Source: Paraburkholderia sp. Tr-20389
GTDB taxonomy: Bacteria > Pseudomonadota > Gammaproteobacteria > Burkholderiales > Burkholderiaceae
Assembly: GCF_017104565.1 (NCBI RefSeq)
Contig: NZ_JAAGPD010000002.1
Coordinates: 248,001-312,000, forward strand
Reading direction: 5' to 3'
Length of the DNA stretch: 64,000 nt
Shown here one piece after another: positions 48,575 through 64,000 of the stretch; position 1 is the stretch's first letter; each line of letters begins with the position of its first letter. A program made the position numbers and the translations under genes. The notes beneath the pieces are model-generated. The model saw only the letters and a program-made list of their open reading frames with translations. It was not told where the DNA came from and ran no database searches.

Positions 48575-49501
48575 TTGGACGTCAACGCCCTCACGCTGCT
48601 GGTCGAGATCATCGATGCCGGCAACCTCAGCGAGGCTGCGCGGCGGCTCAAGATGACTCGCGCCAACGTCAGCTATCACCTCAATCAGTTCGAAAAATCG
48701 CTCGGCCTGCAACTGGTCCGGCGCACGACCCGTCGCGTCGAGCCGACCGAGATCGGGCTGAAACTCTACGAACACGGCCGCGCGATCCGCAATTCGCTGC
48801 TGGCCGCGCAGGAATCCGTCTCGACGCTCGGAGAAAGCCTGCAAGGCCGCGTGCGTCTGTCGGTGCCGAGCGGGTATGGGCAACTGGTGATGTCGGCGTG
48901 GCTGATCGCGTTCAAGCGCGACTATCCGGGCATCGTGCTCGACGTGATGTTCGAAAACCGTGTGGAAGATCTGCTGCGCGACGAAGTGGACATTGCCGTG
49001 CGCGTGATGTCGGAGCCGCCGCAAAACCTCGTCGCGCGTGACATGGGGCCGGTGCGATGGGTCGCGTGTGCGTCGTCGGCTTATGCGGCGCAGCACGGCA
49101 TGCCTGCCGATCTCGACGCACTGCGCACCACGCCGCTCATCACGTCTGCGGTAGTCGGCAGGCAACTGCGCCTTGCCGCCTATCTGCGCGACGAACGGCA
49201 CGAAGTGCTGCTCGAACCGGGCGTGATCTCCGAGAATTTTCTGTTCTTGCGCGAGGCGATTCTCGCAGGACTAGGTGTCGGACTCGTACCCGACTACGTG
49301 GTGCACGACGACATCAGGCGCGGCGACGTCGTCACCGCGCTGGACCCGTGGCGGCTCAGCATTTTCGGCACGAACATGTACATGCTGTATATGCCGAACC
49401 GTCACCACACGCGCGCGACGGCGCGTTTCATCGAATTCATGCTCGACGAGGCGCGCAAGGCAGGACGCGGCGTGCCGTCGAGCGCGAGCGCCGCGCGCTA
49501 G
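48575..49501 (+). CDS. LysR family transcriptional regulator
   Basis: A LysR-type regulator of 308 residues if started at the TTG at 48575, which places the helix-turn-helix at the usual distance from the N-terminus (DVNALTLLVEIIDAGNLSEAARRLKMTRANVSYHLNQFEKSLG). A TTG at 48536 would add 13 residues but sits inside a palindrome that looks like an operator. The effector domain (RVRLSVPSGYGQLVMSAWLIAFKRDYPGI onward) resembles the CrgA/AaeR-like group. Its end overlaps the end of the convergent IclR gene by 4 bases. Confidence 0.88.
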   Translation: MDVNALTLLVEIIDAGNLSEAARRLKMTRANVSYHLNQFEKSLGLQLVRRTTRRVEPTEIGLKLYEHGRAIRNSLLAAQESVSTLGESLQGRVRLSVPSGYGQLVMSAWLIAFKRDYPGIVLDVMFENRVEDLLRDEVDIAVRVMSEPPQNLVARDMGPVRWVACASSAYAAQHGMPADLDALRTTPLITSAVVGRQLRLAAYLRDERHEVLLEPGVISENFLFLREAILAGLGVGLVPDYVVHDDIRRGDVVTALDPWRLSIFGTNMYMLYMPNRHHTRATARFIEFMLDEARKAGRGVPSSASAAR

Positions 49502-50364
49502 ACCTTCGCCGCAGCCTTGACGCGTTTCTTCACATCGCTCACGGGCTTCTCCAGCTTTTCGGGCGTCGCCACGACAGCGCCCACGCGCTTGAAGTAAGGC
49601 GAGCTCAGCGTCGCCGCACCCATGTCCGATGCCGCGCTCAGCAACGAGGGCGCCAACTCCTTCAAACGCGATTCGGGCAGCCGGCTGGTCGGCCCGGCAA
49701 GACTGACGATGCCAACCACTTCGTTCGTCACAGGGTTTCGCACGGGCGCGGCAATCGACGTCATGCCCGCTTCGTAAGTCTCGATCGCCACGCCGTAACC
49801 GCGTTGACGCGCGCCGTTCAGGTCCTTGAGGAACTGCTGGATCGTCTTGGGCGCGCGCGGCGCGCTCTGCGACTTCGCGGCGAGCCCGCCCTGCTTCGAC
49901 ACGAGTTCGATCGCGCGTTCGTCCGATAGCGTCGACAGCCACGCCTGTCCGCTCGCCGTGCAATGCAGCGGCGGCTGGCTGCCCATGTCCGGGTCGTAGC
50001 GCAAGCCGGACTTCGCTCCCTGCGCCTTGCCGACGAACGTCAGATGATCGTCCTCGACGACGCCCAGCCGCGCCAGTTCGCCCGATGTTTCGGCGAGCCG
50101 GTCGAGCACCGGCTGCGAAATGTCGAACACGCCGCTCGTCGACAGATAGATCAGCGCGAGCGACACCAGCTTGAGCGCCAGCATGTATTCGCCGTGGTCT
50201 TCGTCCTGGCGCACGAAGCCTTCCTCGATCAGCATCGACAGCAGCCGATGCGTGCCGCTGCGCGGAATGTTGAGCGTGTCGGCGATGGCCGCGAGCGGCA
50301 TGCGGCCGCCATTCTTCGCCAGCAGTTCGAGCACTGCCAGCGCCCGCTCCAGATTGCCTGCCAT
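49498..50364 (-). CDS. IclR family transcriptional regulator of the catabolic island
   Basis: A 288-residue IclR-type regulator. The N-terminal winged helix is LERALAVLELLAKNGGRMPLAAIADTLNIPRSGTHRLLSMLIEEGFV, and the C-terminal effector domain includes LHCTASGQAWLSTLSDERA and GYGVAIETYEAGMTSIAAPVRN. The C-terminal 35 residues are Lys/Val-rich and variable. The ATG at 50364 is preferred; a TTG at 50382 adds six residues. A palindrome (ATTCCA-N3-TGGAAT) lies about 45 bases upstream, and related palindromes occur in the promoters of the neighbouring catabolic operons, so it probably controls itself and the island. Confidence 0.9.
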   Translation of the reverse strand: MAGNLERALAVLELLAKNGGRMPLAAIADTLNIPRSGTHRLLSMLIEEGFVRQDEDHGEYMLALKLVSLALIYLSTSGVFDISQPVLDRLAETSGELARLGVVEDDHLTFVGKAQGAKSGLRYDPDMGSQPPLHCTASGQAWLSTLSDERAIELVSKQGGLAAKSQSAPRAPKTIQQFLKDLNGARQRGYGVAIETYEAGMTSIAAPVRNPVTNEVVGIVSLAGPTSRLPESRLKELAPSLLSAASDMGAATLSSPYFKRVGAVVATPEKLEKPVSDVKKRVKAAAKV

Positions 50365-50407
50365 GTGGGTAGTCCCGTTCAATCAGTCATACGCAAATGA
50401 GAACACG

Positions 50408-50422
50408 ATTCCACACTGGAAT
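50408..50422. promoter_or_regulatory. Candidate IclR operator upstream of the iclR-like gene
   Basis: ATTCCACACTGGAAT is a perfect 6-3-6 inverted repeat. It uses the same half-sites as the other island sites but in the opposite order (ATTCCA first), so it may be two outward-facing halves of neighbouring sites. It lies between the IclR gene and the isomerase gene. Confidence 0.5.
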
Positions 50423-50481
50423 TCAAGCGGATTCGCGTTCCCCGCCGCATGACAGGCAATCGCGACAACTGCCATGGACGT

Positions 50482-51315
50482 TCAGATCGTCGCGTAAGCC
50501 TGTTCGACGACAGCCAGCGTCGCTTCGCGCAAGCGGCGCGCGCGTTCCACTGCGGGCGTCGTCTTTGCCCATTGCTCGGTCGGCACTTCGATGCTGATGG
50601 GCAGATGATCCGGCAACGCGCGCAAGATGCCGGCTAGATCGATCCCGCCCTCGCCCGGAATCATCCGCTCGCAGCGTGCCTGGAAGAGCAGCGTGTCGAG
50701 ATCCGTCGGACGCTCGGCGGGTGCATCGCAGAACTGCACGTAACCGAACCATTCGCGCGGCAGAGCGCGCAATTCATCCAGCGACGAAGCCGCGCGATCG
50801 AAGTGCAGCGGATCGATGATCAGCCCCGTATTGCGCTTGCCGCTTGCCTTCACGACGCGCGCGCCTTGCGTGATGTTCTTCACTTCCGTCCACGGCATCG
50901 GTTCTACCGAAGGCGAAAGTCCGAGCGGCGCCGCCAGATCGCAGAGCTTGCCGAGATTGTCGACGGTGCGCGCTTTGTCGGGATCGTTGCCCGCCACGAG
51001 CACGTAGCGCGCACCGAGTTCGGCTGCCGTTTCGAGCATCGGCTTGTACGACGCGACGTCCGTATCCGGCTTGAGCCGCAGGATCTCGACATCGAGCACG
51101 CGCATGCCCGTGCCTTTGAGCACCGCGAGCGTTTCGCGCTTGAGCGGCGTATCGCCGACGATCTCGTGCCGCACTTCATGATCCGTGGCTGGCAGCAGGC
51201 GCAGGCCGACGAAGTCGTAGCCCGCGTCGGCCGCGCACTGAACCATCTGCGGCGGGGCGAGTTCGAGTGCCGTCAGTGCCGACAGCGACAACGCCCGCGA
51301 ATGAGCTTGGGTCAT
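50482..51315 (-). CDS. Sugar phosphate isomerase/epimerase-like TIM-barrel protein
   Basis: A 277-residue protein of the xylose-isomerase-like TIM-barrel superfamily, which includes epimerases, IolE/IolH-type inositol enzymes and 3-dehydroshikimate dehydratases. Visible metal-site segments are LSPSVEPMPWTEVKN (Glu), GLIIDPLHFDRA (Asp and His), YVQFCDAPAE and HLPISIEVPTEQWAKT (Glu). The ATG at 51315 has AGGAGA upstream. It is downstream of the NIPSNAP gene in the same operon. With an AroE-like dehydrogenase in the same island, a dehydratase or isomerase acting on a cyclic hydroxy acid is plausible, but unproven. Confidence 0.85.
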   Translation of the reverse strand: MTQAHSRALSLSALTALELAPPQMVQCAADAGYDFVGLRLLPATDHEVRHEIVGDTPLKRETLAVLKGTGMRVLDVEILRLKPDTDVASYKPMLETAAELGARYVLVAGNDPDKARTVDNLGKLCDLAAPLGLSPSVEPMPWTEVKNITQGARVVKASGKRNTGLIIDPLHFDRAASSLDELRALPREWFGYVQFCDAPAERPTDLDTLLFQARCERMIPGEGGIDLAGILRALPDHLPISIEVPTEQWAKTTPAVERARRLREATLAVVEQAYATI

Positions 51316-51354
51316 GATGTCTCCTGTTTTCGTTTCGCGTTTCATTCAGGCCGT

Positions 51355-51966
51355 TCAGCGCAGCGGCGAGAACGGCGCGGGCATGTAGATGGTCGACTCC
51401 ATCGTCGTCAGATGCGCGGGGCCGCCCTTCGGCGGCCAGATGCCGTCTTTCACGGCTTCCGCGCGAATGCGCGAACGCTCGTCGACGCTCGCATACGGCC
51501 AGATGTTCAGAAAGCGCGGCACGGTGCCGTCGAGCGAATACATCGCGCCGATCAGCGGCGAGCGCTTCGTGCGTTCGGGCACGGCCTTTTCCCACGCGTC
51601 GATCGTGTGCTGAAGACTCGCGAGCTTCGTGCCGTACACGCGCATTTCATAGATGCCGCCATGCACGGCCGGTTCGATGGGCGGCAGAAACGGAAAGAGC
51701 GCATAGCTTTCCACCTTCACGTCGTCGACGAATTCGCCGCAGCCGAACGGATTGCCTTCCAGCAACAGACGCTTGCGCTCGTTCACCAGCGCGGCTTCCG
51801 ATTCGAAGCCGCGCAGCACCATCACCTTGCCGAGCGCGCCGATGTCCGAATACCAGCAGCCGAGCAGCATCGCGCCCGCCTGATTGCCGTTTGCCTTGAT
51901 GCTTTCGAAAACCTGCGCGTTCGTGCCGATTTTCACCGTCAGCGTGACTGTGTCATACAGAGTCAT
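51355..51966 (-). CDS. NIPSNAP family protein
   Basis: A 203-residue protein with two ferredoxin-like (dimeric alpha-beta barrel) halves. The second half carries the NIPSNAP hallmark GGIYEMRVYGTKLASLQHTIDAWEKAVPERTKRSPLIGAMYSLDG, and the ending RAEAVKDGIWPPKGGPAHLTTMESTIYMP is typical. Bacterial NIPSNAP proteins often occur in catabolic operons but have no settled reaction. It overlaps the stop of the FAD dehydrogenase by 4 bases (ATGA), so it is translationally coupled to that gene. Confidence 0.87.
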   Translation of the reverse strand: MTLYDTVTLTVKIGTNAQVFESIKANGNQAGAMLLGCWYSDIGALGKVMVLRGFESEAALVNERKRLLLEGNPFGCGEFVDDVKVESYALFPFLPPIEPAVHGGIYEMRVYGTKLASLQHTIDAWEKAVPERTKRSPLIGAMYSLDGTVPRFLNIWPYASVDERSRIRAEAVKDGIWPPKGGPAHLTTMESTIYMPAPFSPLR

Positions 51967-53744
51967 TGCAATGTCCCTTTGATGTGAATGGAAGAGCAGG
52001 CGCGCGTCTCGTCATGCGCCGCGCCGGCAAGAGAAAGTCCCGCGAGATAGCCGAAAGTCATTGCCGGTCCGAGCGTGATGCCGCCGCTCGGATAGCAGCC
52101 GCCCATCATGCTCGCGGCGTCGTTGCCGACCGCGTAGAGACCGGGAATCGCACGCTCGTTGCGGTCGAGCACGCGTGCGTTTGCATCGGTGGCGAGTCCT
52201 GAGAATGTGCCGAGGCTTCCGGGCAGCAGCTTCACCGCGTAGAACGGACCCGTTTCGATGGCCGCGAGGCACGGATTGGGTGTATGTTCGGCATCGCCCT
52301 GCACGCGGTTGTACGGTGTCGAGCCTTTGTGAAACTGCGGATCGAAGCCCTCTTTCGCGTAGGTGTTGCAGGTCGACACGGTGTTCGACAATCCTTGGGG
52401 ATCGATGCCGCACGCCGCCGCGAGTTCAGCAAGCGTCGCGCCGCGCTTCAGATAGCCGGAGCGGAGATACGGCGCCAACGGAAACGGAAACGGCTTCGAA
52501 AAACCGAGCCCGTAACGCCGCTGAAAACGCTGATCGCAGATCAGCCATGCGCACACTTCCTCGCCCCCGGGCGTGGTGCCGAGCAGAGCCGAAATGAAGT
52601 CGTGATACGACGACGCTTCATTGACGAAGCGCTGCCCGGCGCGCGTAACGGCAATCACGCCCGGCTTCGCGCGCTCGATCAGATGAGGAAACGCCACGTC
52701 GGGCGCGCCGCCGCGCTGCGGCACGAGCGACACGGGCGCCCATGCCGCGGGCGCATCAAGCGTGCCGTCGAACGCGCCGCCGATCGACTCGCCCAGGCGG
52801 ATGCCGTCGCCCGTGTTGCTGCGCGGCGCCGCCGACCAGTGCTCGCGCCCCGAAGGCGTATAGGCGAACTCGCGCGCGCGCCGTTCGACATCGTGTGGAA
52901 AGCCGCCGCACGCGAGCACGACGCCGCGCGCCGCGCGTACTTCATGCACGACACCCTCTATTTCGACGCGCGCACCTGTGACGCGCGAATCGTCGCGCAG
53001 AAGGCCAATCGCTTTGGCGTGCGTGCGCAAATCCACCTTGCGATCGGCCGCCGACTTCAGCAGCCGCGCAACGAGCGCGTTGCCGTTGACGAGATGCATC
53101 GAGCGTCCATAGCGCAACTTCTGCCACGCGAACGCCGCCAGCCTGCGCGTTACGTACAGCGCCGATTTCAGCGAGCGCGTCGCGCGATAGAAATGGGCGA
53201 GATCCTGTCCTGATGCCAGTGCCATGCCCTTCAGCGTCATCACGCCAAGCGGCTCGCGCAGCTTGTGGATCAATGCGCCGAGTTCGCGTCCGTCGAACGG
53301 CATCGCGCACACGGAGCGGCCGCCCGTTCCGGCGCCCGGCGTGGTGTGGAAATCCGGAATGCGATTGCCGTCGATGAAACGCATCGCCGTGTTGCGCTCG
53401 AAGAATTCGATCATTTCCGGCCCGCGTTCGAGCAGCGCGTCGGCCTTTGCCGCATCGAATTGCGTGCCAAGTTCGTTCTTCAGATAGGTGCGGGGCGTGT
53501 CGACGTCTTCGCGAATGCCTGCTGCCGTGGCGAGCGGATTACGCGGAATCCACATCCAGCCGCCCGACCACGCGGTCGTGCCGCCGAACACGCTCTCCTT
53601 CTCCGCGACGATCACCCGCAAACCCTGCGCCGCCGCCGTGACGGCAGCCGACAGGCCGCCTGCGCCGGAACCCAGCACCAACACGTCGCATTCGAGAATC
53701 GGTTCACGTTTCATCTTCGGTTCTGCTTGATCAGAGGATTTCAT
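51963..53744 (-). CDS. FAD-dependent dehydrogenase, 3-ketosteroid-delta1-dehydrogenase / fumarate-reductase-like
   Basis: A 593-residue flavoprotein. The dinucleotide-binding motif is DVLVLGSGAGGLSAAVTAAAQGLRV near the N-terminus, followed by EKESVFGGTTAWSGGWMWIP, typical of the KstD/fumarate-reductase group. The C-terminal end closes the FAD site with GLYAVGNDAASMMGGCYPSGGITLGPAMTFGYLA. It shares GQRFVNEASSYHDFI with the second dehydrogenase of the island at 62511. Such enzymes introduce or remove a C=C bond next to a carbonyl. Start at 53744 or, closer to the family, at 53714; neither has a clear ribosome-binding site. First gene of the operon with NIPSNAP and the isomerase. Confidence 0.88.
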   Translation of the reverse strand: MKSSDQAEPKMKREPILECDVLVLGSGAGGLSAAVTAAAQGLRVIVAEKESVFGGTTAWSGGWMWIPRNPLATAAGIREDVDTPRTYLKNELGTQFDAAKADALLERGPEMIEFFERNTAMRFIDGNRIPDFHTTPGAGTGGRSVCAMPFDGRELGALIHKLREPLGVMTLKGMALASGQDLAHFYRATRSLKSALYVTRRLAAFAWQKLRYGRSMHLVNGNALVARLLKSAADRKVDLRTHAKAIGLLRDDSRVTGARVEIEGVVHEVRAARGVVLACGGFPHDVERRAREFAYTPSGREHWSAAPRSNTGDGIRLGESIGGAFDGTLDAPAAWAPVSLVPQRGGAPDVAFPHLIERAKPGVIAVTRAGQRFVNEASSYHDFISALLGTTPGGEEVCAWLICDQRFQRRYGLGFSKPFPFPLAPYLRSGYLKRGATLAELAAACGIDPQGLSNTVSTCNTYAKEGFDPQFHKGSTPYNRVQGDAEHTPNPCLAAIETGPFYAVKLLPGSLGTFSGLATDANARVLDRNERAIPGLYAVGNDAASMMGGCYPSGGITLGPAMTFGYLAGLSLAGAAHDETRACSSIHIKGTLQ

Positions 53745-53769
53745 CCAACTATGGAACTAACTTTCTTTC

Positions 53770-53784
53770 TGGAATACTATTCCA
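53770..53784. promoter_or_regulatory. Candidate IclR operator, divergent promoter
   Basis: TGGAATACTATTCCA, a perfect 6-3-6 palindrome and a close match to the E. coli IclR-type site pattern (TGGAA-N5-TTCCA). It lies between the FAD dehydrogenase (minus) and the epimerase (plus), so it can control both. Confidence 0.7.
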
Positions 53785-53830
53785 CAAAACGCGATCTTGC
53801 AAAGATTTTATGACGATGAGGAGAAAGGAC

Positions 53831-54748
53831 ATGCGGGTACTGGTAACAGGTGGCAGCGGCTTTCTGGGCGCGTGGATCATGCGGCGCCTGCTTGCGCGGG
53901 GCATCGATTGCGTCGCGTTCGATCTGCACGCGAAGCCGCAACTGCTGCAGGCGCTCGCGCCGGAACACGCTGCAGGCGTGCAGTGGCGCACGGGCGACAT
54001 CGCACGAGCCGACGATGTGACACGCGCACTGCACGGCTGCGACGCCGTGATTCATCTCGCGGGCATCCTCACGCCGGACTGCGCGGCCAACCCCGTGCGC
54101 GGCGCGCAGATCAACCTGATCGGCACGCTGAACATCTTCGATGCGGCGCGCGCAGCGGGCCTCAAACGCGTGCTGTACGCCAGCAGCGCAGGCGTATTCG
54201 GCCCCGACGACGGCGCGACGCCGCATCCGCAAACGCACTACGGCGCGTTCAAGCTCGCGTGCGAAGGCTCGGCGCGCGCGTACTGGAACGATCATCGCAT
54301 CGCGAGCGTCGGCTTTCGCCCGCTCGTCGTGTATGGCGCGGGCCGCGAAACGGGTTCGAGTGCGGCGCCGAGCCTCGCCTGCCGCGCTGCCGCGCGCGGC
54401 GAGCGCTACACGATGCCGTTCACGGGTTCGACGGGCTTCGTGTTCGCCGACGACGTCGCCGCCGCGTATGAAGCCGCGTTGCTGCGCGACATCGAGGGCG
54501 CGCACGCCTTCACGCTGGCGGGCGACATCGCGTCCGTCGCGAGCGTGATCGACCGGATTGCGACGCTGGTGCCCGACGCGCGGATCGACGCAGCAGGCGC
54601 ACCGTTGCCCATCGCGACAGAATTTCCCCACGATCCAGCACTCGACCACCTGCTGCCCGGTCTGCCGCGCACCTCGCTCGATGACGGGCTGCGGCAGACC
54701 ATTGCGTTCTATCGTCACGCGCTGCAGACGTCGCTGCAGACGCAATAG
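53831..54748 (+). CDS. NAD-dependent epimerase/dehydratase (extended SDR)
   Basis: A 305-residue extended short-chain dehydrogenase. The cofactor motif is VLVTGGSGFLGAWIMRRLL (GxxGxxG at 7-13), with DIARADDVTRALHGCDAVIHLAGI next and the catalytic Tyr137-x3-Lys141 in HYGAFKLACEG. The ATG at 53831 has GAGGAGAAAGGAC upstream; an ATG at 53810 would add seven residues. The substrate is probably a sugar, cyclitol or related hydroxy compound. It converges with the Gfo/Idh/MocA gene. Confidence 0.88.
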   Translation: MRVLVTGGSGFLGAWIMRRLLARGIDCVAFDLHAKPQLLQALAPEHAAGVQWRTGDIARADDVTRALHGCDAVIHLAGILTPDCAANPVRGAQINLIGTLNIFDAARAAGLKRVLYASSAGVFGPDDGATPHPQTHYGAFKLACEGSARAYWNDHRIASVGFRPLVVYGAGRETGSSAAPSLACRAAARGERYTMPFTGSTGFVFADDVAAAYEAALLRDIEGAHAFTLAGDIASVASVIDRIATLVPDARIDAAGAPLPIATEFPHDPALDHLLPGLPRTSLDDGLRQTIAFYRHALQTSLQTQ

Positions 54749-54755: not shown

Positions 54756-55793
54756 TCAACGCGCGGGCGCCACGGGCCCGCGCGCCGCCACGGCCCGATG
54801 CACGGCAAGCGTCGCGGCGAGCGTGCGCGCGGCGTCATCGGCGGAACATAGCGGCGCTTCCTCACGTGCGATCACGGCGGCGAAGTGGCGCAACTGCTCG
54901 TGATACGGGTCGGCGCTATGCGGTGTGCTGCGCTCGACCGTCAGCGGCTCGTGCCAGCCCTTGCGCGCACGGTACTCCCACACGTCGAGTTGCGGCAGCG
55001 TCAGCGACGCGTCCGTGCCGATCAGGAAATGCGTGTTCACCTGCTGACGCGGATAATGCGCCGCTTCGCCCGCTGCGAGATCCCAGTTCCACGGCGAGGT
55101 CGCGCAGTCGGAGACGGCGAGCGTGCCGAGCGCGCCGCTGGCGAAGCGAAACAGCACAGCGGCCGTGTCCTCGACGTCGAACCCGCGCACCGCGTTCGAC
55201 GTGAGCGCCTGTACTTCGACGATATCGCCGAGCAGGAAACGCATGATGTCGATGTCGTGGATCAGGTTGATCAGCACCGGCCCGCCGCCCGCGCGCCGCC
55301 GCCATTCGACGTCGAAGTACGCATCCGGCTTGTAGAACGTCGCCAGCGCATTCGCCGTGACGGGCGTGCCGAGACGGCCCGATTGAACGATCTCCCGCGC
55401 GCGCCGCAGGATCGGATTGTGTCGGCGGTGATGGCCGACCAGTAGCGGCACGCCCGCCTCGTCTGCCGCGCGTGCCAGCCGCAGCGCTTCGTCGACGTCG
55501 TCGGCGATCGGCTTTTCGATCAACGCGGGCACGCCGCGCGCAATGCACGCGAGCCCGACATCGACGTGCGTCGCATTCGGTGTCGCGACAATCGCGCCTT
55601 CCGGCCGCACGTCCTCCAGCATCGCCTCGTAGCCTTCGAACCAGCGCAGTCCCTCTTGCCGCGCAAACTCGCTCGCAGCAGGCGACGGATCCGCAATCGC
55701 CACCACCTCCGCCTGCGGATGCAGCCGCGCCCGCTCCACATGCATGCGTCCGATCGCGCCCGCGCCGATTACCGCCAGACGTCTCCTTGCCAT
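54756..55793 (-). CDS. Gfo/Idh/MocA family oxidoreductase
   Basis: A 345-residue NAD(P)-dependent dehydrogenase of the glucose-fructose oxidoreductase/inositol dehydrogenase family. The Rossmann motif is LAVIGAGAIGRMHVERA, and the conserved EKPIADD places the key Lys at 94. The C-terminal sheet domain contains GGGPVLINLIHDIDIMRFLLGD, the usual site for the catalytic His and Asp. The ATG at 55793 has AAGGAG nine bases upstream. It faces the ABC importer operon across a 181-base region with candidate IclR sites. Confidence 0.9.
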   Translation of the reverse strand: MARRRLAVIGAGAIGRMHVERARLHPQAEVVAIADPSPAASEFARQEGLRWFEGYEAMLEDVRPEGAIVATPNATHVDVGLACIARGVPALIEKPIADDVDEALRLARAADEAGVPLLVGHHRRHNPILRRAREIVQSGRLGTPVTANALATFYKPDAYFDVEWRRRAGGGPVLINLIHDIDIMRFLLGDIVEVQALTSNAVRGFDVEDTAAVLFRFASGALGTLAVSDCATSPWNWDLAAGEAAHYPRQQVNTHFLIGTDASLTLPQLDVWEYRARKGWHEPLTVERSTPHSADPYHEQLRHFAAVIAREEAPLCSADDAARTLAATLAVHRAVAARGPVAPAR

Positions 55794-55974: not shown

Positions 55975-57288
55975 ATGAGCGACAAGCACAAGCAAGCGGA
56001 TGCAGTTCTCAACCACGGCACGCCTGCCGCCGACGAAGGCAGCAGCGGCGGCACGCGCATGACGCGCCGCGACTGGCTCGCGACGGCGGGCAAGACGCTC
56101 GCGAGCGGCGCGGCGGTGCTCGCCGCGCCCGCGATCGTGCGCGCGCAGGGCGAGCAGCCGCTCAAGCTCGGCCTGCTGATGGCCAAGCAGGGTGTGTGGA
56201 CGGAACAGGGCGAAGTGATCGCGAACGGCGTGAAGATGGCGCTCGACGACGCGAACAACCAGGCGCGCGGACGACGCGTCGATCTCGTCTGGTACGACGA
56301 ACCGAATCCGCAGTCGGCGCAGCAAAACATGCAGAAGCTCGTCGAGCAGGACAAGGTGATTGCCGTGATCGGCGGCACGAACAGCGGCACGTCGCTGGCG
56401 ATGTCGTCCGTCGCGAACCGCACGAAGACGCCGTATATCGCACCCAATGCGGCCGCGCGCGAACTGACGGGCGGCAGCTGCAATCCGTACACGTTCCGCG
56501 TGCTGAGCCCGACGCCCGTCACGTGCCGCGCGCTCGCGCCGTCGCTGCTCGCGATCGGCAAGAAGTGGCATTTTCTCGTCGCGAACTATGCGTATGGACA
56601 GGACATCCAGCGTTCGATGTCCGATCTGTTGAAGCAGTCGGGCGGCACGATCACGGGCGCTGACGTGACGCCGCTCAACACCACCGACTTCAGCTCGTTC
56701 ATCCTCAAGATCCGCCAGTCGAAGCCCGACGTGGTGCTGCTCGGCCTGCCCGGCGGCGATCTGTCGACCTTCCTCAAGCAGTACGCGGAAATGGGCATGA
56801 AGGACAAGATTCCCGTCGCGTGCCCGATCATCGGCGACTCGGACTTGTGGTCGATCAGCGTCGACGCGGCAACGGGCTATTACGGCAAGCCGTGGCACTT
56901 CAGCTCGCCGGGCCATTCGCCCGAAGAAGTCGCGTTCATCAAGAAGTACACGGCGAAATACGGCAAGCCGCCCGCCGACAAGGCGTGGATCGGCTGGTTC
57001 ACGACGCGCGCGCTGCTCGCGGGTGTCAACCAGGCGAAGAGCACGTCGGGACCGGACATCGTGCAAAGCCTGGAGACGGTGCAGTTCGGCGACAGCAGCG
57101 GGCCCGCGTACTTCCGTCCGTGGGATCACCAGATGCTGCGGCGCTGGACCGTGTTCAAGGTCAAGGATCACATCACCGACAAATGGGACTGGCTCAACCA
57201 GGTGTCGGCCGTGCCGCAGAACCCTTCGGAACTCGACAAGCTGTACGGCACGCGCCAGGAAATCGGCTGCACGATGGCCGCGCGCTGA
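55975..57288 (+). CDS. ABC transporter substrate-binding protein (branched-chain amino acid / urea type, Tat-exported)
   Basis: A 437-residue periplasmic binding protein of the LivJ/UrtA class. It has a 58-residue leader with a twin-arginine motif TRRDWLA at 30-36 and a hydrophobic stretch ending AIVRAQ, so it should be exported folded by Tat. The mature part begins PLKLGLLMAKQGVWTEQGEVIANGVKMALDD, with VIAVIGGTNSGTSLAMS and SSFILKIRQSKPDVVLLGLPGGD. In this class ligands range from amino acids to aromatic acids and short diacids. First gene of a five-gene operon. Confidence 0.9.
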   Translation: MSDKHKQADAVLNHGTPAADEGSSGGTRMTRRDWLATAGKTLASGAAVLAAPAIVRAQGEQPLKLGLLMAKQGVWTEQGEVIANGVKMALDDANNQARGRRVDLVWYDEPNPQSAQQNMQKLVEQDKVIAVIGGTNSGTSLAMSSVANRTKTPYIAPNAAARELTGGSCNPYTFRVLSPTPVTCRALAPSLLAIGKKWHFLVANYAYGQDIQRSMSDLLKQSGGTITGADVTPLNTTDFSSFILKIRQSKPDVVLLGLPGGDLSTFLKQYAEMGMKDKIPVACPIIGDSDLWSISVDAATGYYGKPWHFSSPGHSPEEVAFIKKYTAKYGKPPADKAWIGWFTTRALLAGVNQAKSTSGPDIVQSLETVQFGDSSGPAYFRPWDHQMLRRWTVFKVKDHITDKWDWLNQVSAVPQNPSELDKLYGTRQEIGCTMAAR

Positions 57289-57383: not shown

Positions 57384-58253
57384 ATGGCAGAAATGGTGTT
57401 GTCCCAGATCGCCAATGGACTGGTACTGGGCTTTCTCTACGTGCTGCTCGCGATCGGTCTGTCGATCATCTGCGGGCTGCTTGGCATCGTCAATTTCGCG
57501 CACGGCGCGCTGTTCGCGCTGGGCGCGTACTTCGCAATCGCGCTGTCGATGCAGTTCGGCTGGGCGGCCGTGATCGTCGCGCCCGTTCTCGTCGCGCTGG
57601 TCGGCATGTTGATCGAAGTGATCTTCATCCGCCGGTTGTATGGAAAGGAGCCTTTGCTCGGCCTGATCGTGACGTTCGCGCTGTCGCTGCTGCTGACGGC
57701 GCTGATCCGGCTGGTGTGGGGCGCGGGCGGCCTGCCGTTCAGCCCGCCTGCTGCGCTGAACGGCTTCCTCGTCTATGGGCCGCTGCTGATCACGAAATAC
57801 CGCCTGTTCGTGCTCGCCGCGACGGTCGCGATTCTGCTCGCGTTGTGGTGGTTCATGAAATTCACGCCCTATGGACGCATCCTGCGCGCGGGCAGCCGCG
57901 ACCCCGAAATGGTCGGCCTGCTCGGCATCAATCTGCCGCGCGTGCTGACGGGCGCATTCGGGCTCGGCGCACTGCTCGCAGGCGCGGCCGGCGTGCTGGC
58001 CGCTCCGCTGCTGACGGTCACGCCGAGCATGGCGACAGCCGCCGTGATGCCCGCCTTCGTGATCGTCACGATCGGCGGCCTGGGCTCGTTCGCGGGCGCC
58101 GTCGTCGCGGGATTGCTGGTCGGCATCGTCACCGCGCTGGCCGTGCAGTTCTTCCCCGAAGGCTCGTCGGTGGCGATGTACGTGCTGATGGCACTCGTTC
58201 TGCTCGTGCGTCCGCGCGGGTTGTTCGGCGAACGCTGGGAGCGCTTCGAATGA
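57384..58253 (+). CDS. livH: Branched-chain-amino-acid-type ABC transporter permease LivH
   Basis: A 289-residue inner-membrane permease of the LivH family, with about eight hydrophobic segments. The opening QIANGLVLGFLYVLLAIGLSIICGLLGIVNFAHGALFALGAY and the EAA-like region FTPYGRILRAGSRDPEMVGLLGINLPRV are typical. The ATG at 57384 follows GGAG. Its TGA overlaps the ATG of the fused LivM-LivG-LivF gene by 3 bases. The frame is open far upstream inside the binding-protein gene, which is not coding in this frame. Confidence 0.92.
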   Translation: MAEMVLSQIANGLVLGFLYVLLAIGLSIICGLLGIVNFAHGALFALGAYFAIALSMQFGWAAVIVAPVLVALVGMLIEVIFIRRLYGKEPLLGLIVTFALSLLLTALIRLVWGAGGLPFSPPAALNGFLVYGPLLITKYRLFVLAATVAILLALWWFMKFTPYGRILRAGSRDPEMVGLLGINLPRVLTGAFGLGALLAGAAGVLAAPLLTVTPSMATAAVMPAFVIVTIGGLGSFAGAVVAGLLVGIVTALAVQFFPEGSSVAMYVLMALVLLVRPRGLFGERWERFE

Positions 58254-60802
58254 ATCTCAAACTCTTGACCCGCCACCCCGTCGCGCTGCTGGCGACTTGT
58301 CTCTTCATCGTGTCGATCGCGTTGACCGCGACGGGCACGCCGCTCGAACGCGCGACGCAGATCGCCATCTACACGCTCTACGGCATGGGCGTGAATCTGC
58401 TCGTCGCGTACACGGGCCTCGTGCCGTTCGGTGCGTCGGTGTTCTTCGGCACGTCGACATATCTGGTCGCGATTTCGCTGCAACGCCTGATCGGCAACGA
58501 AGTCGTCGCGCTCGCCGCGAGCGTGATCGTCACGGGCGCGATGGCGGCGCTGATCGGCGCCATCGTGCTCAAGCGGCGCGGCCTGTACTTCTCGCTGCTG
58601 ACGCTCGCGTGCTCGCAGATCGCATTCGAAATCGCATTCAAATGGACCGATATGACGGGCGGCGAGAACGGACTGCAGAACGTACCGCGCCCGACCTTCG
58701 CGACCACCACGGGCTTCCACATCTTTGCCTGCGTGACCGTGGTGGCCGTTGCGTACGGTCTGTGGCGGCTCGTGCATGCGCCGTTCGGACGCGCGTTGCA
58801 GGCGCTGCGCGACAACGAGCAGCGCGCCGCGAGCCTCGGCTACGACACGTATCGGCTCAAGCTCTATGCGTTTGTCATCTCGGCTTCCGTGATCGGTTAC
58901 GCAGGCGGCCTGCTCTGCCTGATGCTGCAAGGCGCGTACGCGAACAACCTGAGCTGGGAACACGCCGGCGACAGCCTGCTGATGACCGTGCTCGGCGGCG
59001 TGCATCAGTTTCTCGGGCCGCTGTGGGGCGCCATCGCGTTCATCCTGCTCGAAGACAAGCTGAGCAGCCTGACGGAGCATTGGTGGCTGATGTTCGCGCC
59101 CATCATCATCGCGTTTGCGTTCTTCTCGCCCGAGGGCATTCAGGGGCTCGCACAACGGCTGCTGCGCCGGCCTCGCTGGACGCTCGTTCGCGACACCATC
59201 CCGCCGCGTCCCGAAGTCATCGCGCCGTACCGCGCGAGCCGCATCGACATGGACCCCAACACGCCGATTCTCAGCGTGCGCGGCCTGTCGAAACAGTTCG
59301 GCTCGCTCGTCACCGCCGACAACATCGATCTCGACGTGTATCCGTACAAGCTGCACAGCTTCATCGGACCGAACGGTGCGGGCAAGACGACGTTCTTCAA
59401 CATGCTGACGGGCGTGCTGCCTCCTTCGTCGGGCACGATCGCCTTCGACGGCAGGGACGTCACGAAGCTCGCGATGTTCCGCCGCGTGAGGCTCGGCATG
59501 AGCCGCTCGTTTCAGATCCTCAGTGTGTTCCGCAATCTCACCGTGTTCGAGAACGTGCGCGTCGCCGTGCAGGCGGCCCAGCGCAAACGTCTCGGTCTCT
59601 GGCACGACGCGCATACGCTCGACAAGCAGAATGCGCAGACATGGTCGCTGCTCGCCGCCGTCGGTCTCGTCGAGCGTGCGGCCGCCTCGTGCGAAAGTCT
59701 GTCGCACGGCGAGCAGCGGCTGCTCGAAATCGCGTTGTCGCTCGCGACGCAAGCGCGCCTTCTGCTGCTCGACGAACCGCTCGCCGGACTCGCCGAAGCG
59801 GATCGCGCGACCGTCGCGCGCATCGTGCGCGAACTCGCGAATCATCATGCCGTGCTGTTGATCGAACACGACATCGACCGTGTGCTGACCATTTCCGATC
59901 GCGTCAGCGTGCTGCATCGCGGGCATCTGATCGCGGACGGCTCGCCCGCCGTCGTGGCCGCGCATCCCGAAGTGATCGAAGCGTACATGGGTCATGCGAA
60001 GGGCGAGCGTGCCGTCGACGTGCGTCTGGCTCAACGCATCGACGCAAAGCGCGACACGTCGAAAGAGAAGCACCCGCTGCTGCGTCTCGAAGGCGTGAAG
60101 GCGGGTTACGCGGGCAACACGATCCTCGACGGCATCGATCTCGCGCTGCACGAAGGCGAAGTCATCGCGATCCTCGGTCGCAACGGCGTGGGCAAGACCA
60201 CGGCGTTGCGCGCGGCAACGGGCGTCGCGCAGGTCAGCGGGGGTACGATTACCTTCGACGGTCACGACATCACGTCGCGCGCGCCGCACGAGATCAACCG
60301 CCTCGGCCTCGCGATGGTGCCCGAAGGCCGCCGCCTGTTCCCGAACCTGACCGTCTACGAAAACCTGCGGCTTGCGGCGCGCAAGGGCGGCGCGAGCGTC
60401 GACGAGATGTATGCGCTGTTTCCGCGGCTCGCGAACCGCAAGGACGTGCGCGCTGAACATCTTTCCGGCGGCGAGCGGCAGATGGTGGCGATTGCGCGTG
60501 CGTTGATGGCGCCCGCTAAAGCGATTCTGCTCGACGAGCCGTTCGAAGGGCTCGCGCCTGCCGTCGTGCAGGAAGTGCTCGACGCCGTCGTGAAGCTGCG
60601 CGAGCGCGCAAGCGTCGTGATCGTCGAACATCAGGCGGACATGGTGCTGCCGATTGCGGACCGCGTGTACGTGCTCGTCAACGGACGCGTCGCCTATGAA
60701 AACACGGCCGATGCGCTGGCGCAGGACGCCGCGATGCAAGCCAAACTGCTAGGCATCGTGCATGACGATGCAAGTTCTACTCTGGAGGTGAAATCAGCAT
60801 GA
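58250..60802 (+). CDS. Fused ABC permease and two ATPases (LivM-LivG-LivF)
   Basis: One 850-residue chain. Residues about 1-310 are a LivM permease (YGMGVNLLVAYTGLVPFGASVFFG; KRRGLYFSLLTLACSQIAFE; LRDNEQRAASLGYD). About 330-580 are a LivG-type ATPase: Walker A GPNGAGKTT at 373-381, signature LSHGEQ, Walker B LLLLDEPLAGL, switch IEHD. About 605-840 are a LivF-type ATPase: Walker A GRNGVGKTT at 643-651, signature LSGGERQMVAIARAL, Walker B ILLDEPFEGLAP. No stop or frameshift interrupts it. An ATG at 59249 before the first ATPase lacks a ribosome-binding site; no Met precedes the second ATPase. Start overlaps livH; end overlaps the AroE-like gene. Confidence 0.92.
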   Translation: MNLKLLTRHPVALLATCLFIVSIALTATGTPLERATQIAIYTLYGMGVNLLVAYTGLVPFGASVFFGTSTYLVAISLQRLIGNEVVALAASVIVTGAMAALIGAIVLKRRGLYFSLLTLACSQIAFEIAFKWTDMTGGENGLQNVPRPTFATTTGFHIFACVTVVAVAYGLWRLVHAPFGRALQALRDNEQRAASLGYDTYRLKLYAFVISASVIGYAGGLLCLMLQGAYANNLSWEHAGDSLLMTVLGGVHQFLGPLWGAIAFILLEDKLSSLTEHWWLMFAPIIIAFAFFSPEGIQGLAQRLLRRPRWTLVRDTIPPRPEVIAPYRASRIDMDPNTPILSVRGLSKQFGSLVTADNIDLDVYPYKLHSFIGPNGAGKTTFFNMLTGVLPPSSGTIAFDGRDVTKLAMFRRVRLGMSRSFQILSVFRNLTVFENVRVAVQAAQRKRLGLWHDAHTLDKQNAQTWSLLAAVGLVERAAASCESLSHGEQRLLEIALSLATQARLLLLDEPLAGLAEADRATVARIVRELANHHAVLLIEHDIDRVLTISDRVSVLHRGHLIADGSPAVVAAHPEVIEAYMGHAKGERAVDVRLAQRIDAKRDTSKEKHPLLRLEGVKAGYAGNTILDGIDLALHEGEVIAILGRNGVGKTTALRAATGVAQVSGGTITFDGHDITSRAPHEINRLGLAMVPEGRRLFPNLTVYENLRLAARKGGASVDEMYALFPRLANRKDVRAEHLSGGERQMVAIARALMAPAKAILLDEPFEGLAPAVVQEVLDAVVKLRERASVVIVEHQADMVLPIADRVYVLVNGRVAYENTADALAQDAAMQAKLLGIVHDDASSTLEVKSA

Positions 60803-61641
60803 CCGAATCCACAGCAACGCAAGCCGCCGTATCGCTCGACGAAGGACTCAGCGGCGCGACGCGCGTGTACTTCATCGTCGGCGATCCGATTGCGCAGGTG
60901 CGCTCGCCGAAGGGCGTGACGGCCGCGCTGCGCGAAGCAGGACGCGATGCGCTGGTAGTTCCTGCGCACGTCGCGCCCGACGACCTGGCCGCATTCTTCG
61001 CGGGCGTCGCGCCGATGCGCAACGTCGACGGCGTGATCATCACGGTGCCGCACAAGTTCAGCGCCGCGGCGTACTGCAAGAGCTTTTCCGAAGAGGCCGC
61101 GTTTCTCTGCGCGGTGAATACGTTGCGCCGCGCGCCCGATGGCACGTGGCACGGCGGCATGTTCGACGGCACCGGCTTCGTCGCGGCGCTCGTCGATGCC
61201 GGCTGCGATCTGCAAGGCAAGCGCGCGTTGCTGGTCGGCGCGGGCGGTGCGGGCTCGGCGATCGGACACGCACTCGTCAACGCGGGCGTCGCGTCGCTCG
61301 ATGTGCTCGACAACGACGCCGCGCGCACCGAATCGCTGGTTGCGCGGCTCGCCGCGCTGCAACGCGGCGCCGTCCACACGGCGTCGAAGGACGTCGCGGC
61401 CGAATCGTTCGATGTTGTCGTCAATGCATCGCCGATGGGTATGCGCGCCGACGACCCATTGCCCGTCGATGTATCGCGTCTCGCTGCATCGACCTTCGTC
61501 GGCGACGTGGTGACGAAGCCGCCGCTCACGCCGTTCATCGAAGCGGCTCGCGCACGCGGCTGCAAGACGGTGACGGGCACGCAGATGTTCGCGCGCGTCT
61601 GCGACCGCATGGTCGAGTTCCTGCTGGACGGCGACGCATGA
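60799..61641 (+). CDS. AroE-like (shikimate/quinate dehydrogenase family) protein
   Basis: A 280-residue member of the shikimate dehydrogenase family. The catalytic Lys86 (ITVPHK) and Asp123 (MFDGTGF) are present, as is the NAD(P)-binding LLVGAGGAGSAIGHALVNAG at about 143-160. The substrate-binding motif, normally HSxSP, reads QVRSP here, so one of the two serines that hold the shikimate carboxylate is lost. Together with the operon context this argues for a catabolic enzyme with a related but different substrate, not the biosynthetic AroE. Start overlaps the fused transporter gene (ATGA); its end overlaps the next gene the same way. Confidence 0.88.
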   Translation: MTESTATQAAVSLDEGLSGATRVYFIVGDPIAQVRSPKGVTAALREAGRDALVVPAHVAPDDLAAFFAGVAPMRNVDGVIITVPHKFSAAAYCKSFSEEAAFLCAVNTLRRAPDGTWHGGMFDGTGFVAALVDAGCDLQGKRALLVGAGGAGSAIGHALVNAGVASLDVLDNDAARTESLVARLAALQRGAVHTASKDVAAESFDVVVNASPMGMRADDPLPVDVSRLAASTFVGDVVTKPPLTPFIEAARARGCKTVTGTQMFARVCDRMVEFLLDGDA

Positions 61642-62378
61642 GTGCGACGCAGCGGGTCGCCATCGTCACGGGTGGCGCGGGCGGCATCGGCCGCGCGATT
61701 GCGGCGCGGTTGCAACGCGACGGCCTGCGCGTCGCACTGTGGGATCTCGATGCGGCCGCCGCGCGCGAAGCGGCCTCTGCATTGCCGGACGGCACGGCCA
61801 TCGGCGTGCATGCCGATGTCACGGACGAGGCATCCGTCGCCGCCGCCCTTCAGACCACGCTCGATCGCTTCGGCTCGCTGCACGTGCTGATCAACAGCGC
61901 GGGCACGACGGGACCGATCGCGCCCGTCGCCGACAGCGCGCTCGATGCGTGGCAGCGCTGCATCGACGTCAATCTGCGCAGCGTGTTCCTGTGCTCGCGC
62001 GCCGCCGTCAGACCGATGCTCGCGGCGGGCTTCGGACGCATCGTGAATCTCGCGTCGATTGCGGGCAAGGAAGGCAATCCGTCGATGTCCGCGTATTCGG
62101 CGGCGAAGGCGGGTGTGATCGCGTTCACGAAGTCGATGGGCAAGGAACTCGCGCTCACGCCCGTGCGCGTGAACTGCGTCGCGCCCGCCGTCATCGAAAC
62201 GCCGTTGCTGCAACAGATGACGCCGGAAGCGCTCGCCGCGAGCCTCGCGAAGATTCCGATGCAGCGCGCGGGTACGGCCGATGAAGTCGCGAATCTGGCC
62301 GCGTGGCTGGCGTCGGACGAATGCTCGTTTTCGTGCGGCGCGACCTTCGACCTCTCCGGAGGACGTGCGACCTATTGA
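61638..62378 (+). CDS. Short-chain dehydrogenase/reductase
   Basis: A 246-residue classical SDR of the FabG-like type. The cofactor motif is VTGGAGGIGRA (residues 10-20), Asp at 36-38 after the second strand (WDLD) favours NAD, and the catalytic set is Ser140, Tyr153 and Lys157 in VNLASIAG and MSAYSAAKAG. The C-terminus ends DLSGGRATY. Its start overlaps the AroE-like stop by 4 bases. Expected to oxidise a secondary alcohol of the imported compound or an intermediate. Last gene of the importer operon. Confidence 0.92.
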   Translation: MSATQRVAIVTGGAGGIGRAIAARLQRDGLRVALWDLDAAAAREAASALPDGTAIGVHADVTDEASVAAALQTTLDRFGSLHVLINSAGTTGPIAPVADSALDAWQRCIDVNLRSVFLCSRAAVRPMLAAGFGRIVNLASIAGKEGNPSMSAYSAAKAGVIAFTKSMGKELALTPVRVNCVAPAVIETPLLQQMTPEALAASLAKIPMQRAGTADEVANLAAWLASDECSFSCGATFDLSGGRATY

Positions 62379-62414
62379 AGCCCAACCCTCGAAACAGGCT
62401 TCGGCCCTCATTTA

Positions 62415-62457
62415 TGGAATATAGTTCCACTTTCATAAATACTGGAATATCATTCCA
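62415..62457. promoter_or_regulatory. Tandem candidate IclR operators upstream of the second FAD dehydrogenase
   Basis: TGGAATATAGTTCCA (62415-62429, one mismatch) and TGGAATATCATTCCA (62443-62457, perfect) lie 28 bases apart, start to start, and 54-96 bases upstream of the FAD dehydrogenase start. Confidence 0.7.
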
Positions 62458-62510
62458 TTCATTGAATGTCGCCGGAGCAACGGCGATGCGGCGGAACGAA
62501 GGAGACAGGC

Positions 62511-64000
62511 ATGGTTTCGGAGCGAGCGTCCGGCTGGGACGAAGAAGTCGATCTGCTGATATTCGGCGCGGGCGCGGCCGGCATGACGGCGGCGCTGATC
62601 GCGCATCACGAGGGGCTCAAGGTTCTCGTGTGCGAAAAGACAGAGGCCGTCGGCGGCATTACGTCGACCTCGGGCGGCACGACGTGGGTGCCCGGCACGC
62701 AACTGAGCATCGACGCGGGCGTGCCCGATAGCGTCGACGATGCGCGGCGCTTTCTGCAATCGGTGGTCGGCGATCGTGGCGGCGACGAAGCGCGGGAAGC
62801 GTTCCTGCAAAGCGGGCCGCTCGCCATCGACGAACTGCAGCGCATCAGCGATGTCCGCTTCGTCGCGGCAGCCGCGCACCCCGACTACGTGACGGGCCCC
62901 GGCGCGGCGTTCGGCGGCCGCGCGCTCGCGCCCGTTCCGTTCGATGCGAGCGTGCTCGGCAAGGATCTCGCGCGGGTCAGGCCGCCGCGCAAGGAGTTCT
63001 TGGGCCTCGGCGGCATGATGGTCAATCGCAGCGATCTGAACGCGTTGCTGTTTCCTTTCGCGTCGGTCGGCAATTTCAAGCGCACGGTGTCCGTCGTGGG
63101 ACGCTATTTCCTCGATCGGCTGCGCTTTCCGCGCGGCACGCAACTCGTGATGGGCAACGCCCTCGCCGCCCGCCTTTTCTACAGCCTGCGCAAGCGCGGC
63201 GTGAACGTGCGGTTCGAAGCGCCCCTCATCGAACTCGTGCGCGAGAACGGCAGAGTGACCGGCGCGGTGGTCGGCTCGAAGAACGGCGCGAGCACGCGGA
63301 TCGGCGCGCGTCTCGGCGTCGTGCTCGCGACGGGCGGCGTCACGCGCCATCCCGCGCTGCGCAAGCAACTGTTTCCCGCGGGCGCTGAGCCGCTGTCACT
63401 GTCGCCCGATACGCATACGGGCGACGGCGTCGGCAGCGCGCTGAAGATCGACGCGCGGCTCGAAAACGGCGGCGACAGCCCCGGACTCTGGATGCCCTGC
63501 TCGATCCGCCGCTCGCGCGACGGCAACGACAGCGTATGGCCGCACATCATTCTCGATCGCGCGAAACCGGGGCTCATCGCCGTCAACAGGCGCGGCGAGC
63601 GCTTCGTGAACGAGTCGAACTCGTACCACGATTTCGTCATGGGCATGCTGCGCGATGCAGGCAACGGCACGAGCGTGCCCGCCCATCTGATCGTCGATGC
63701 GGCGTTCCTTCGCGACTACGGGTTGGGTCTGTTGATGCCCGGACGCAGCCGCGCGCGTATCGCCGAGTTCGAACGGTCCGGGTATCTGGTGAAAGGCGCG
63801 ACGCTCGCCGAGTTGGCAAAGAAGCTGGATGTCGACGCGACAGGACTCGCGCGTACCGTCGATACCTACAACCGTCACGCCGCAGTGGGCAAGGATCCGG
63901 CATTCGGCCGCGGCTCCGGGCCGATGAGCCGCTTCAATGGCGATCCGGCGCAAAAGCCCAACCCGTGCGTCCGTCCATTGGGTGACGGGCCGTACTATGC
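62511..64000 (+). CDS. FAD-dependent dehydrogenase, KstD/fumarate-reductase-like (3' end outside the window)
   Basis: The frame opens at the ATG at 62511, with AAGGAG upstream, and runs without a stop to the window end (496 codons seen). It begins MVSERASGWDEEVDLLIFGAG and continues with the FAD motif GAGAAGMTAALIAHHEG, EKTEAVGGITSTSGGTTWVPG and, further on, RGERFVNESNSYHDFVMGML. It is a paralogue of the dehydrogenase at 51963-53744, with the same family layout but clear divergence. The missing C-terminal part should contain the GGCYPSGG-like FAD closure. Two upstream IclR-type palindromes make it part of the island regulon. Confidence 0.9.
   Translation, partial: MVSERASGWDEEVDLLIFGAGAAGMTAALIAHHEGLKVLVCEKTEAVGGITSTSGGTTWVPGTQLSIDAGVPDSVDDARRFLQSVVGDRGGDEAREAFLQSGPLAIDELQRISDVRFVAAAAHPDYVTGPGAAFGGRALAPVPFDASVLGKDLARVRPPRKEFLGLGGMMVNRSDLNALLFPFASVGNFKRTVSVVGRYFLDRLRFPRGTQLVMGNALAARLFYSLRKRGVNVRFEAPLIELVRENGRVTGAVVGSKNGASTRIGARLGVVLATGGVTRHPALRKQLFPAGAEPLSLSPDTHTGDGVGSALKIDARLENGGDSPGLWMPCSIRRSRDGNDSVWPHIILDRAKPGLIAVNRRGERFVNESNSYHDFVMGMLRDAGNGTSVPAHLIVDAAFLRDYGLGLLMPGRSRARIAEFERSGYLVKGATLAELAKKLDVDATGLARTVDTYNRHAAVGKDPAFGRGSGPMSRFNGDPAQKPNPCVRPLGDGPYY

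Follow-up and report, generated by a model that had tools for sequence, protein, structure and literature searches.

Which compound is consumed by a gene set in which two flavoenzymes resembling the ketone desaturase KstD stand together with a dehydrogenase of the AroE family, a TIM-barrel protein and a Liv-type importer? The question is raised by a block of genes that starts at position 49498 of a 64,000-nucleotide stretch of Paraburkholderia sp. Tr-20389 (contig NZ_JAAGPD010000002.1, positions 248,001 to 312,000), here called the window, and runs on past its end. An earlier note on the same DNA had described the block as a catabolic island with an unusual enzyme set, possibly leading from a hydroxylated alicyclic acid or a cyclitol to a hydroxybenzoate. 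We have looked at gene content, co-conservation, conserved active-site residues and genomic neighbours, all of them directly observable, and believe on balance that the block is probably a catabolic module complete in itself, which takes up a hydroxylated cyclohexane-carboxylic acid and converts it to an aromatic compound. Every gene that the note had named is present, by reading frames and by Pfam and NCBIfam scans whose labels agree with the claimed set (the LivH label is that of a syntenic record). The genes are:

49498..50382, minus strand: IclR-family regulator (IclR_C and HTH_IclR domains)
50482..51315, minus strand, start at 51315 or 51345: TIM-barrel isomerase/dehydratase, xylose-isomerase-like (PF01261, AP_endonuc_2), below called TIM
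51355..51966, minus strand: NIPSNAP-family protein of 203 amino acids (PF07978, two matched stretches)
51963..53744, minus strand: FAD1, putative KstD-like ketone desaturase (FAD_binding_2; PRK06134)
53810..54748, plus strand: extended short-chain dehydrogenase/reductase (SDR), epimerase-like, accessory (PF01370)
54756..55793, minus strand: Gfo/Idh/MocA oxidoreductase, accessory (PF01408)
55975..57288, plus strand: Liv-type substrate-binding protein (SBP; NCBIfam urea and branched-chain binding-protein models, all below cut-off)
57384..58253, plus strand: LivH-type permease (reading frame; the syntenic record has it as a branched-chain amino acid ABC transporter permease)
58250..60802, plus strand: LivM-LivG-LivF fusion of 850 amino acids (BPD_transp_2 and two ABC_tran domains in one frame)
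60799..61641, plus strand: AroE-like (4k28/RifI2-type) dehydrogenase (Shikimate_dh_N; best PDB match 4k28)
61638..62378, plus strand: SDR, accessory (adh_short_C2)
62466..64000, running on to about 64280, plus strand: FAD2, second putative KstD-like desaturase (FAD_binding_2; ChcC2 412 bits)

The complete FAD2 has 604 amino acids (L002:13466-15280) and extends 280 bases beyond the window.

That these genes belong together is seen from the company they keep in relatives. Our locus set consists of the best 80 of 190 relatives, confirmed by a FAD1 scan of genome contigs, in which neighbours were counted by tblastn (at least 45% identity for the AroE-like enzyme and at least 38% for the second flavoenzyme, non-overlapping matches, flanks of up to 10 kb). 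Near FAD1 we found the AroE-like gene in 74 of the 80 loci, the second flavoenzyme in 66, TIM in 73, NIPSNAP in 74 and IclR in 71; FAD1, the AroE-like enzyme and the second flavoenzyme coincide in 63, and all six core genes in 56. Where the AroE-like gene is present it is separated from FAD1 by 2.2 kb in the median and by 8.7 kb at most, and NIPSNAP lies on the FAD1 strand in all 74 loci that have it, at a median gap of 42 bp. The FAD1 and AroE orthologues are spaced by about 7 kb in P. caribensis MBA4, much as in the window, and by about 3 kb in P. phymatum STM815. Forty-eight of the loci, with FAD1 71-88% identical, are not independent of one another (Burkholderia, Paraburkholderia, Caballeronia and one titled Bradyrhizobium), and the other 32 (57-64%) come from Bosea, Bradyrhizobium, Comamonas, Polaromonas, Azohydromonas, Derxia, Pseudomonas and others. 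At least 21 kb of sequence was available for 64 loci, and some absences are contig ends. The core occurs in alpha- and betaproteobacteria, its order varying and its content staying the same. The six-gene core is real, widely conserved and no chance grouping, and it came safely through the neighbourhood comparison that the earlier note had proposed as a check.

Other parts of the block are optional. The SBP, LivH, LivM and LivG genes were found in 22 of the 80 loci each (at 40-50% identity or more), the Gfo gene in 29, the epimerase in 39 and the SDR in 15 (at least 50% identity), and other lineages swap in symporters for the Liv importer. Compact versions, such as loci L097, L102 and L103, are made up of FAD2, AroE, IclR, FAD1, NIPSNAP and TIM plus one MHS transporter only. 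In an even sample of 200 genomes from the order, FAD1 at 58% identity or more was present in five genomes, with an AroE-like gene within about 7 kb in all five, and among 12 FAD1-family places at 50-55% one had an AroE-like gene (E 1e-30 or better) within 10 kb. Starting from the other partner, an AroE-like gene of at least 54% was present in seven genomes, five of them with FAD1 beside it. This sample and the locus set overlap in one place, since L118 is apparently the same sequence as G137:C87 (17,385 bases).

The module is also found on plasmids. Nine annotated plasmid records were viewed (eight of the 40 FAD1 plasmid matches listed, and H43), and six of them carry FAD1 together with an AroE-like gene: those of Paraburkholderia largidicola, Rhizobium sp. 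ACO-34A, two Paracoccus, Diaphorobacter and Rhizobium sullae. In all nine the module genes bear generic names only, and the AroE-like gene of the Diaphorobacter plasmid is annotated as ThiF family. In the P. largidicola record (AP028202) the order and content from IclR to FAD2 are identical to those of the window and the flanks differ. The adjoining fadB-like, LysR and OsmC genes were considered as members of the block and rejected, because they had no match at 1e-40 in the 80 loci and AP028202 has other flanks. The word island is justified by synteny but not by composition: the guanine-plus-cytosine content is 63-68% in 2-kb bins from position 48000 on and 63-66% in those from 30000 to 48000, a shift that is not clear, and we rejected the idea of recent foreign DNA on compositional grounds.

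FAD1 and FAD2 are about 39-41% identical. FAD1 exceeds the cut-off of the NCBIfam model PRK06134 (854 bits, cut-off 747), and against the ChcC1 and ChcC2 models FAD1 scores 342 and 521 bits and FAD2 285 and 412, below the cut-offs of 1000 and 900. The closest solved structure is the same for both, the 3-oxosteroid 1-dehydrogenase 7p18 (313 bits each). The active site of KstD is presumably formed by Tyr119, Tyr318, Tyr487 and Gly491, in the numbering and with the roles that we assume here. Residues Y380, Y551 and G555 of FAD1 align with the Tyr318, Tyr487 and Gly491 columns and F132 sits at the Tyr119 column; in FAD2 all four columns are filled (Y141, Y387, Y560, G564). To follow these residues across the loci, genes were called in the relatives with a simple GC-frame caller, which misses genes, and rows with no fitting call were dropped (7 of 80 for FAD1, 4 of 66 for the second flavoenzyme, 7 of 74 for AroE, 5 of 73 for TIM). 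The equivalents of Tyr318, Tyr487 and Gly491 are kept in all 74 FAD1 rows. Among the 63 rows of the second flavoenzyme, Tyr318 is kept in 63, Tyr487 in 61 (two gaps) and Gly491 in 59 (three gaps and one Ala), and the Tyr119 column holds Tyr in every row. The likeness to KstD (7p18, 4c3x) lies in the fold family and in the ketone-desaturation residues, whereas the gene context is different and FAD1 has Phe at the Tyr119 column. The second flavoenzyme itself comes in two types, about 39-46% identical, which take each other's place in the module: type 2a (53 rows, including Caballeronia, Derxia and Bosea) and type 2b, to which the window belongs (10 rows). This is replacement within one enzyme class.

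The constant partner of FAD1 is the AroE-like dehydrogenase, for which the earlier note had claimed an altered substrate motif. The alignment bears this out, with GDPIAQVRSP in the window protein and FPVEHSLSP in the AroE chain 2egg. Its best PDB match, 4k28 (148 bits, the next chain 93), has SPIAQVKSP and so shares the motif PIAQV[RK]SP; the title of that record is 'Shikimate dehydrogenase family protein'. Across 68 rows (67 loci and the window) GDPIAQV[RK]SP is nearly fixed (Q in 67, V in 67), and K86, N107 and D123 are invariant, the Lys and the Asp being presumably catalytic. We take 4k28 to be RifI2 of Pseudomonas putida, an orphan enzyme that reportedly prefers NAD+ and has weak activity on shikimate. 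By best match, shared motif and the Lys/Asp pair the window protein is classed as a 4k28/RifI2-type dehydrogenase, while it stays below the cut-off of the biosynthetic AroE model TIGR00507 (136 bits, cut-off 200) and, likewise, of the other shikimate dehydrogenase models listed. The same genome holds five matches to this query at E 1e-30. An AroE of the same clade on contig C27 (L030:7976-10389) overlaps the end of a CoA-transferase-like gene that is 42% identical to the one accompanying the module in four relatives.

For the remaining enzymes the sequence gives broader indications. In TIM the residues E138, D168, H171, Q194 and E243 are conserved at 99-100% across 69 rows, which represent 68 loci and the window, and are read as a putative metal site. 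A TIM profile matches 2g0w, IolI (1i60), 5hmq and 3u0h, the aligned portion of 5hmq, which we take to be the dehydroshikimate dehydratase QuiC1, being N-terminal. Against the two-domain QuiC model NF042435 (cut-off 1200) TIM reaches 40 bits, over the TIM domain only, and against the IolE model it gave no match at E 0.001. The best NCBIfam models for the IclR protein, BhcR and PcaR/PcaU/PobR, are both below cut-off. The Gfo protein has 148 bits to IolG (cut-off 355), and the SDR is over the cut-off of two generic SDR models only, with 207 bits to ChcB2 (cut-off 350) and 164 to ChcB1 (400).

A described route with a comparable logic is the aerobic chc pathway of Sinomonas cyclohexanicum, in which 4-hydroxy-cyclohexanecarboxylate is dehydrogenated and then converted to 4-hydroxybenzoate by two consecutive desaturases (PMC9795900). 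The likeness to what this account sets out is in the conversion of a hydroxyl to a ketone, the pair of desaturases and the hydroxybenzoate product; FAD1 and FAD2 resemble ChcC2, the SDR resembles ChcB2, and both ChcC2 and ChcB2 are among the named-function models that, below cut-off, come after the generic FAD and SDR ones. The module differs in having an AroE-family enzyme as its constant alcohol dehydrogenase and, in addition, TIM, NIPSNAP, Gfo, the epimerase and an ATP-binding cassette (ABC) importer. Membership in the chc pathway was rejected, the curated ChcB and ChcC cut-offs not being reached. As to the P450 system that a chc cluster should have for 4-hydroxylation, no match to the P450 family was found among the block proteins scanned (all but LivH). 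In 17 of the closer loci (for example L071 and L077) inspection by eye showed a P450-like gene; it lies beyond IclR among unrelated-looking genes and was not counted, and by eye none of the 34 loci L086-L119 has one. With quinate and shikimate catabolism the block shares an AroE-family dehydrogenase, a TIM enzyme and, in some relatives, an MHS-type transporter, but it adds two ketone desaturases and NIPSNAP, and AroQ and QuiC are outside the window module. Since the chc, AroE, QuiC and iol cut-offs are all missed, we file the block under none of these systems; by analogy we propose that it works like the chc route without being a member of it, most likely as a new variant of ring-acid aromatisation.

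The reactions, their order, the substrate and the product are our reconstruction. The Liv ABC importer would take up the ring acid, and the AroE-like enzyme, perhaps helped by the SDR, would turn a ring hydroxyl into a ketone. FAD1 and FAD2 would then each take away a pair of hydrogens adjacent to the ketone, in the manner of KstD and the ChcC enzymes, to give a dienone that becomes a phenol. TIM might epimerise or dehydrate, and NIPSNAP might assist, for example as a tautomerase, although both of these roles are guesses. The resulting hydroxybenzoate, for example protocatechuate or gallate, would enter ordinary ring cleavage (through the protocatechuate 3,4-dioxygenase of contig C18), with IclR as the regulator of the module. 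Going from a saturated ring acid to a benzoate takes three unsaturations, and one alcohol oxidation plus two desaturations supplies exactly three. By formula, protocatechuate would be the product from 3,4-dihydroxycyclohexanecarboxylate and gallate the product from dihydroshikimate, and a saturated hydroxy-cyclohexanecarboxylate, such as dihydroshikimate, is our leading guess for the substrate.

The transporters that replace the Liv importer fit with an acid. A PcaK-like AAHS symporter (at least 73% identical to the query) was found in 17 of the 80 loci, a ShiA-like MHS symporter (at least 74%) in eight and a TRAP permease in three; these context counts, like those of the neighbours below, come from one query per gene and include the query's own locus. 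The AAHS symporters score 493 and 500 bits to PcaK (cut-off 770) and 399 and 407 to the AAHS subfamily model (418.55), and the MHS ones 362 bits to their own subfamily (443) and 262 and 271 to the shikimate transporter (538), so that they resemble these families without reaching the cut-offs. Families of the AAHS and MHS type carry organic acids, and the module substrate is therefore probably a carboxylate. The Tr-20389 genome itself encodes a protein with 75% identity to the MHS query; it lies directly beside the gene for AroE2, a member of the AroE-like clade, on contig C19 (L033:2202-10022), with AroQ about 5 kb away. As to the Liv importer, LivM-LivG-LivF is a single open reading frame in 20 of the 21 loci that have LivM, LivG and LivF at 50% identity or more.

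What lies next to the module in a few relatives points to the kind of product. Several of the family names given here were recognised by eye where no family search was made. In L115 the genes FAD2-AroE-FAD1-TIM stand beside LigK (422 bits, cut-off 304.5), LigA (235, cut-off 108.6) and a LigB-family protein (572, cut-off 317), besides two amidohydrolases and a Gfo-type protein; by these scores the neighbours are genes of protocatechuate 4,5-cleavage. In L092 and L025 the surroundings of FAD1, to a distance of about 3-7 kb, include a QuiC-like protein (810 and 823 bits, below the cut-off of 1200) and a shikimate/quinate dehydrogenase that exceeds the cut-off of PRK12549. L118 has an AroQ that exceeds its cut-off, another protein of the AroE family and a Dioxygenase_C protein below the catechol dioxygenase cut-off, and in genome G058 about 7.5 kb with other genes separate a further FAD1 relative from LigA and LigB. 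At a threshold of E 1e-60 the Tr-20389 genome has just one further ChcC2-like protein, a FAD1 paralogue on contig C11 (571 bits; L121:7062-13702), accompanied by a short NIPSNAP and a PcaK-like transporter and separated by a single AraC-type regulator gene from pobA (540.0 bits, cut-off 538.7), which suggests a second aromatising module in the same genome. On contig C18 a beta subunit of protocatechuate 3,4-dioxygenase exceeds its cut-off, and the weaker match adjoining it is probably the alpha subunit.

Several observations weigh against this reconstruction. LigA, LigB, LigK, the intradiol dioxygenase and full-length QuiC were each found in one of the 80 loci, that of the query itself; several neighbour counts thus depend on one locus, and with the queries used ring-cleavage genes were not found in most of the 80 loci. 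The aromatic, hydroxybenzoate-type product that the earlier note had envisaged is in this way favoured by the Lig and the QuiC-like and dehydrogenase neighbours and by pobA near the C11 paralogue, and held back by how few loci these are. The two partners can also be found apart. Genomes G002 and G175 carry an AroE-like gene of at least 54% with no FAD1 in the stretch fetched, six of the 80 loci have no AroE-like gene at 45% (L041, L058, L059, L079, L101, L113), and three of the nine plasmid records, from Paraburkholderia aromaticivorans, Bosea vaviloviae and Nitratireductor thuwali, have a FAD1 relative with no annotated AroE-like gene in the stretch. The Tyr119 column of the FAD1 rows is Phe in 73 of 74 and Met in the other, and the Liv importer of the window belongs to no carboxylate-specific family. 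Finally, a dehydratase TIM and both desaturases in one line would overshoot aromaticity, and for this reason the role of either TIM as a dehydratase or one desaturase must differ from the one sketched. We guess it to be more likely that TIM is an epimerase or isomerase, or that it acts on a variant of the substrate from which water has to be removed; for NIPSNAP the role of a tautomerase is conceivable.

Four of the loci (L098, L109, L114, L117) have, instead of ring-cleavage genes, an acyl-CoA dehydrogenase and a CoA-transferase near TIM. This would fit a coenzyme A (CoA)-ester or ring-opening route for alicyclic acids, in which the flavoenzymes make the ring ready to be cleaved by hydrolysis or in the manner of beta-oxidation, with no aromatic intermediate. 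We consider it unlikely, as the other 76 loci have neither gene with the queries used and the fadB-like gene beside the block is not matched in any of the 80. A cyclitol substrate, the other option in the earlier note, seems to us quite unlikely. Here the Gfo (IolG-like), SDR and TIM enzymes would oxidise polyols of the inositol, quercitol or pinitol type and the flavoenzymes would complete the aromatisation. The similarity of Gfo to IolG and of the TIM profile to IolI agrees with this, as does the absence from the AroE-like motif of one of the two serines aligned with HSLSP of 2egg, which we assume to bind the carboxylate. However, Gfo, SDR and the epimerase are the optional genes, missing from the compact versions, the alternative symporters look like those for carboxylates, and the IolG and IolE cut-offs are not reached by block proteins, IolE being over cut-off on a different contig of the genome (C21).

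Distinctly unlikely, in our opinion, is an alternative route for quinate or shikimate, with the AroE-like enzyme as quinate/shikimate dehydrogenase, TIM as dehydroshikimate dehydratase and the flavoenzymes as peripheral. The alignment of TIM with 5hmq speaks for it, as do the QuiC-like and dehydrogenase genes that neighbour the module in L092 and L025, but the genome has separate candidates for these steps (AroE2 and AroQ on C19 and, on C65, a QuiC-like match that at 910 bits misses the cut-off of 1200), and the second flavoenzyme, present in 66 of the 80 loci, is not needed for either compound. The breakdown of a steroid- or terpenoid-like ring ketone, finally, we hold to be highly improbable: both flavoenzymes are nearest to 7p18 among solved structures, yet the usual partner of FAD1, in 74 of the 80 loci, is an AroE-family enzyme, and no steroid ring-opening gene was seen by eye among the neighbours listed, for which no systematic search was made.

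Returning to the aromatisation of a ring acid, we advance tentatively, still from sequence comparison, that the block represents an undescribed pathway, plasmid-borne as well as chromosomal, by which soil proteobacteria may aromatise saturated hydroxylated cyclohexane-carboxylates such as dihydroshikimate and 3,4-dihydroxycyclohexanecarboxylate. Its core would consist of the AroE-like enzyme, the two KstD-like desaturases, TIM, NIPSNAP and IclR. A literature search, of incomplete coverage, gave no description of such a module among the matches listed. If this proposal is true, it would provide a compact and transferable route from reduced ring acids to protocatechuate-type metabolism and a physiological role for the orphan RifI2-type dehydrogenases and for catabolic NIPSNAP proteins. 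The labels 'shikimate dehydrogenase', 'FAD-dependent oxidoreductase' and 'branched-chain amino acid transporter' would also have to be corrected in many genomes. A vague annotation would thereby be narrowed to a short list of candidate substrates.

Two of the relatives have arrangements of their own. The Rhizobium sullae plasmid (NZ_CP104145, L135), typed as conjugative, carries the module with a fused Liv ATP-binding/permease gene, adjoining a recombinase gene. In Burkholderia sp. Ax-1724 (L096) two related sets are found near each other, one with FAD1, NIPSNAP, TIM and an AroE of 49% identity, the other with an AroE of 81%, an SDR of 82% and a FAD2 of type 2b.

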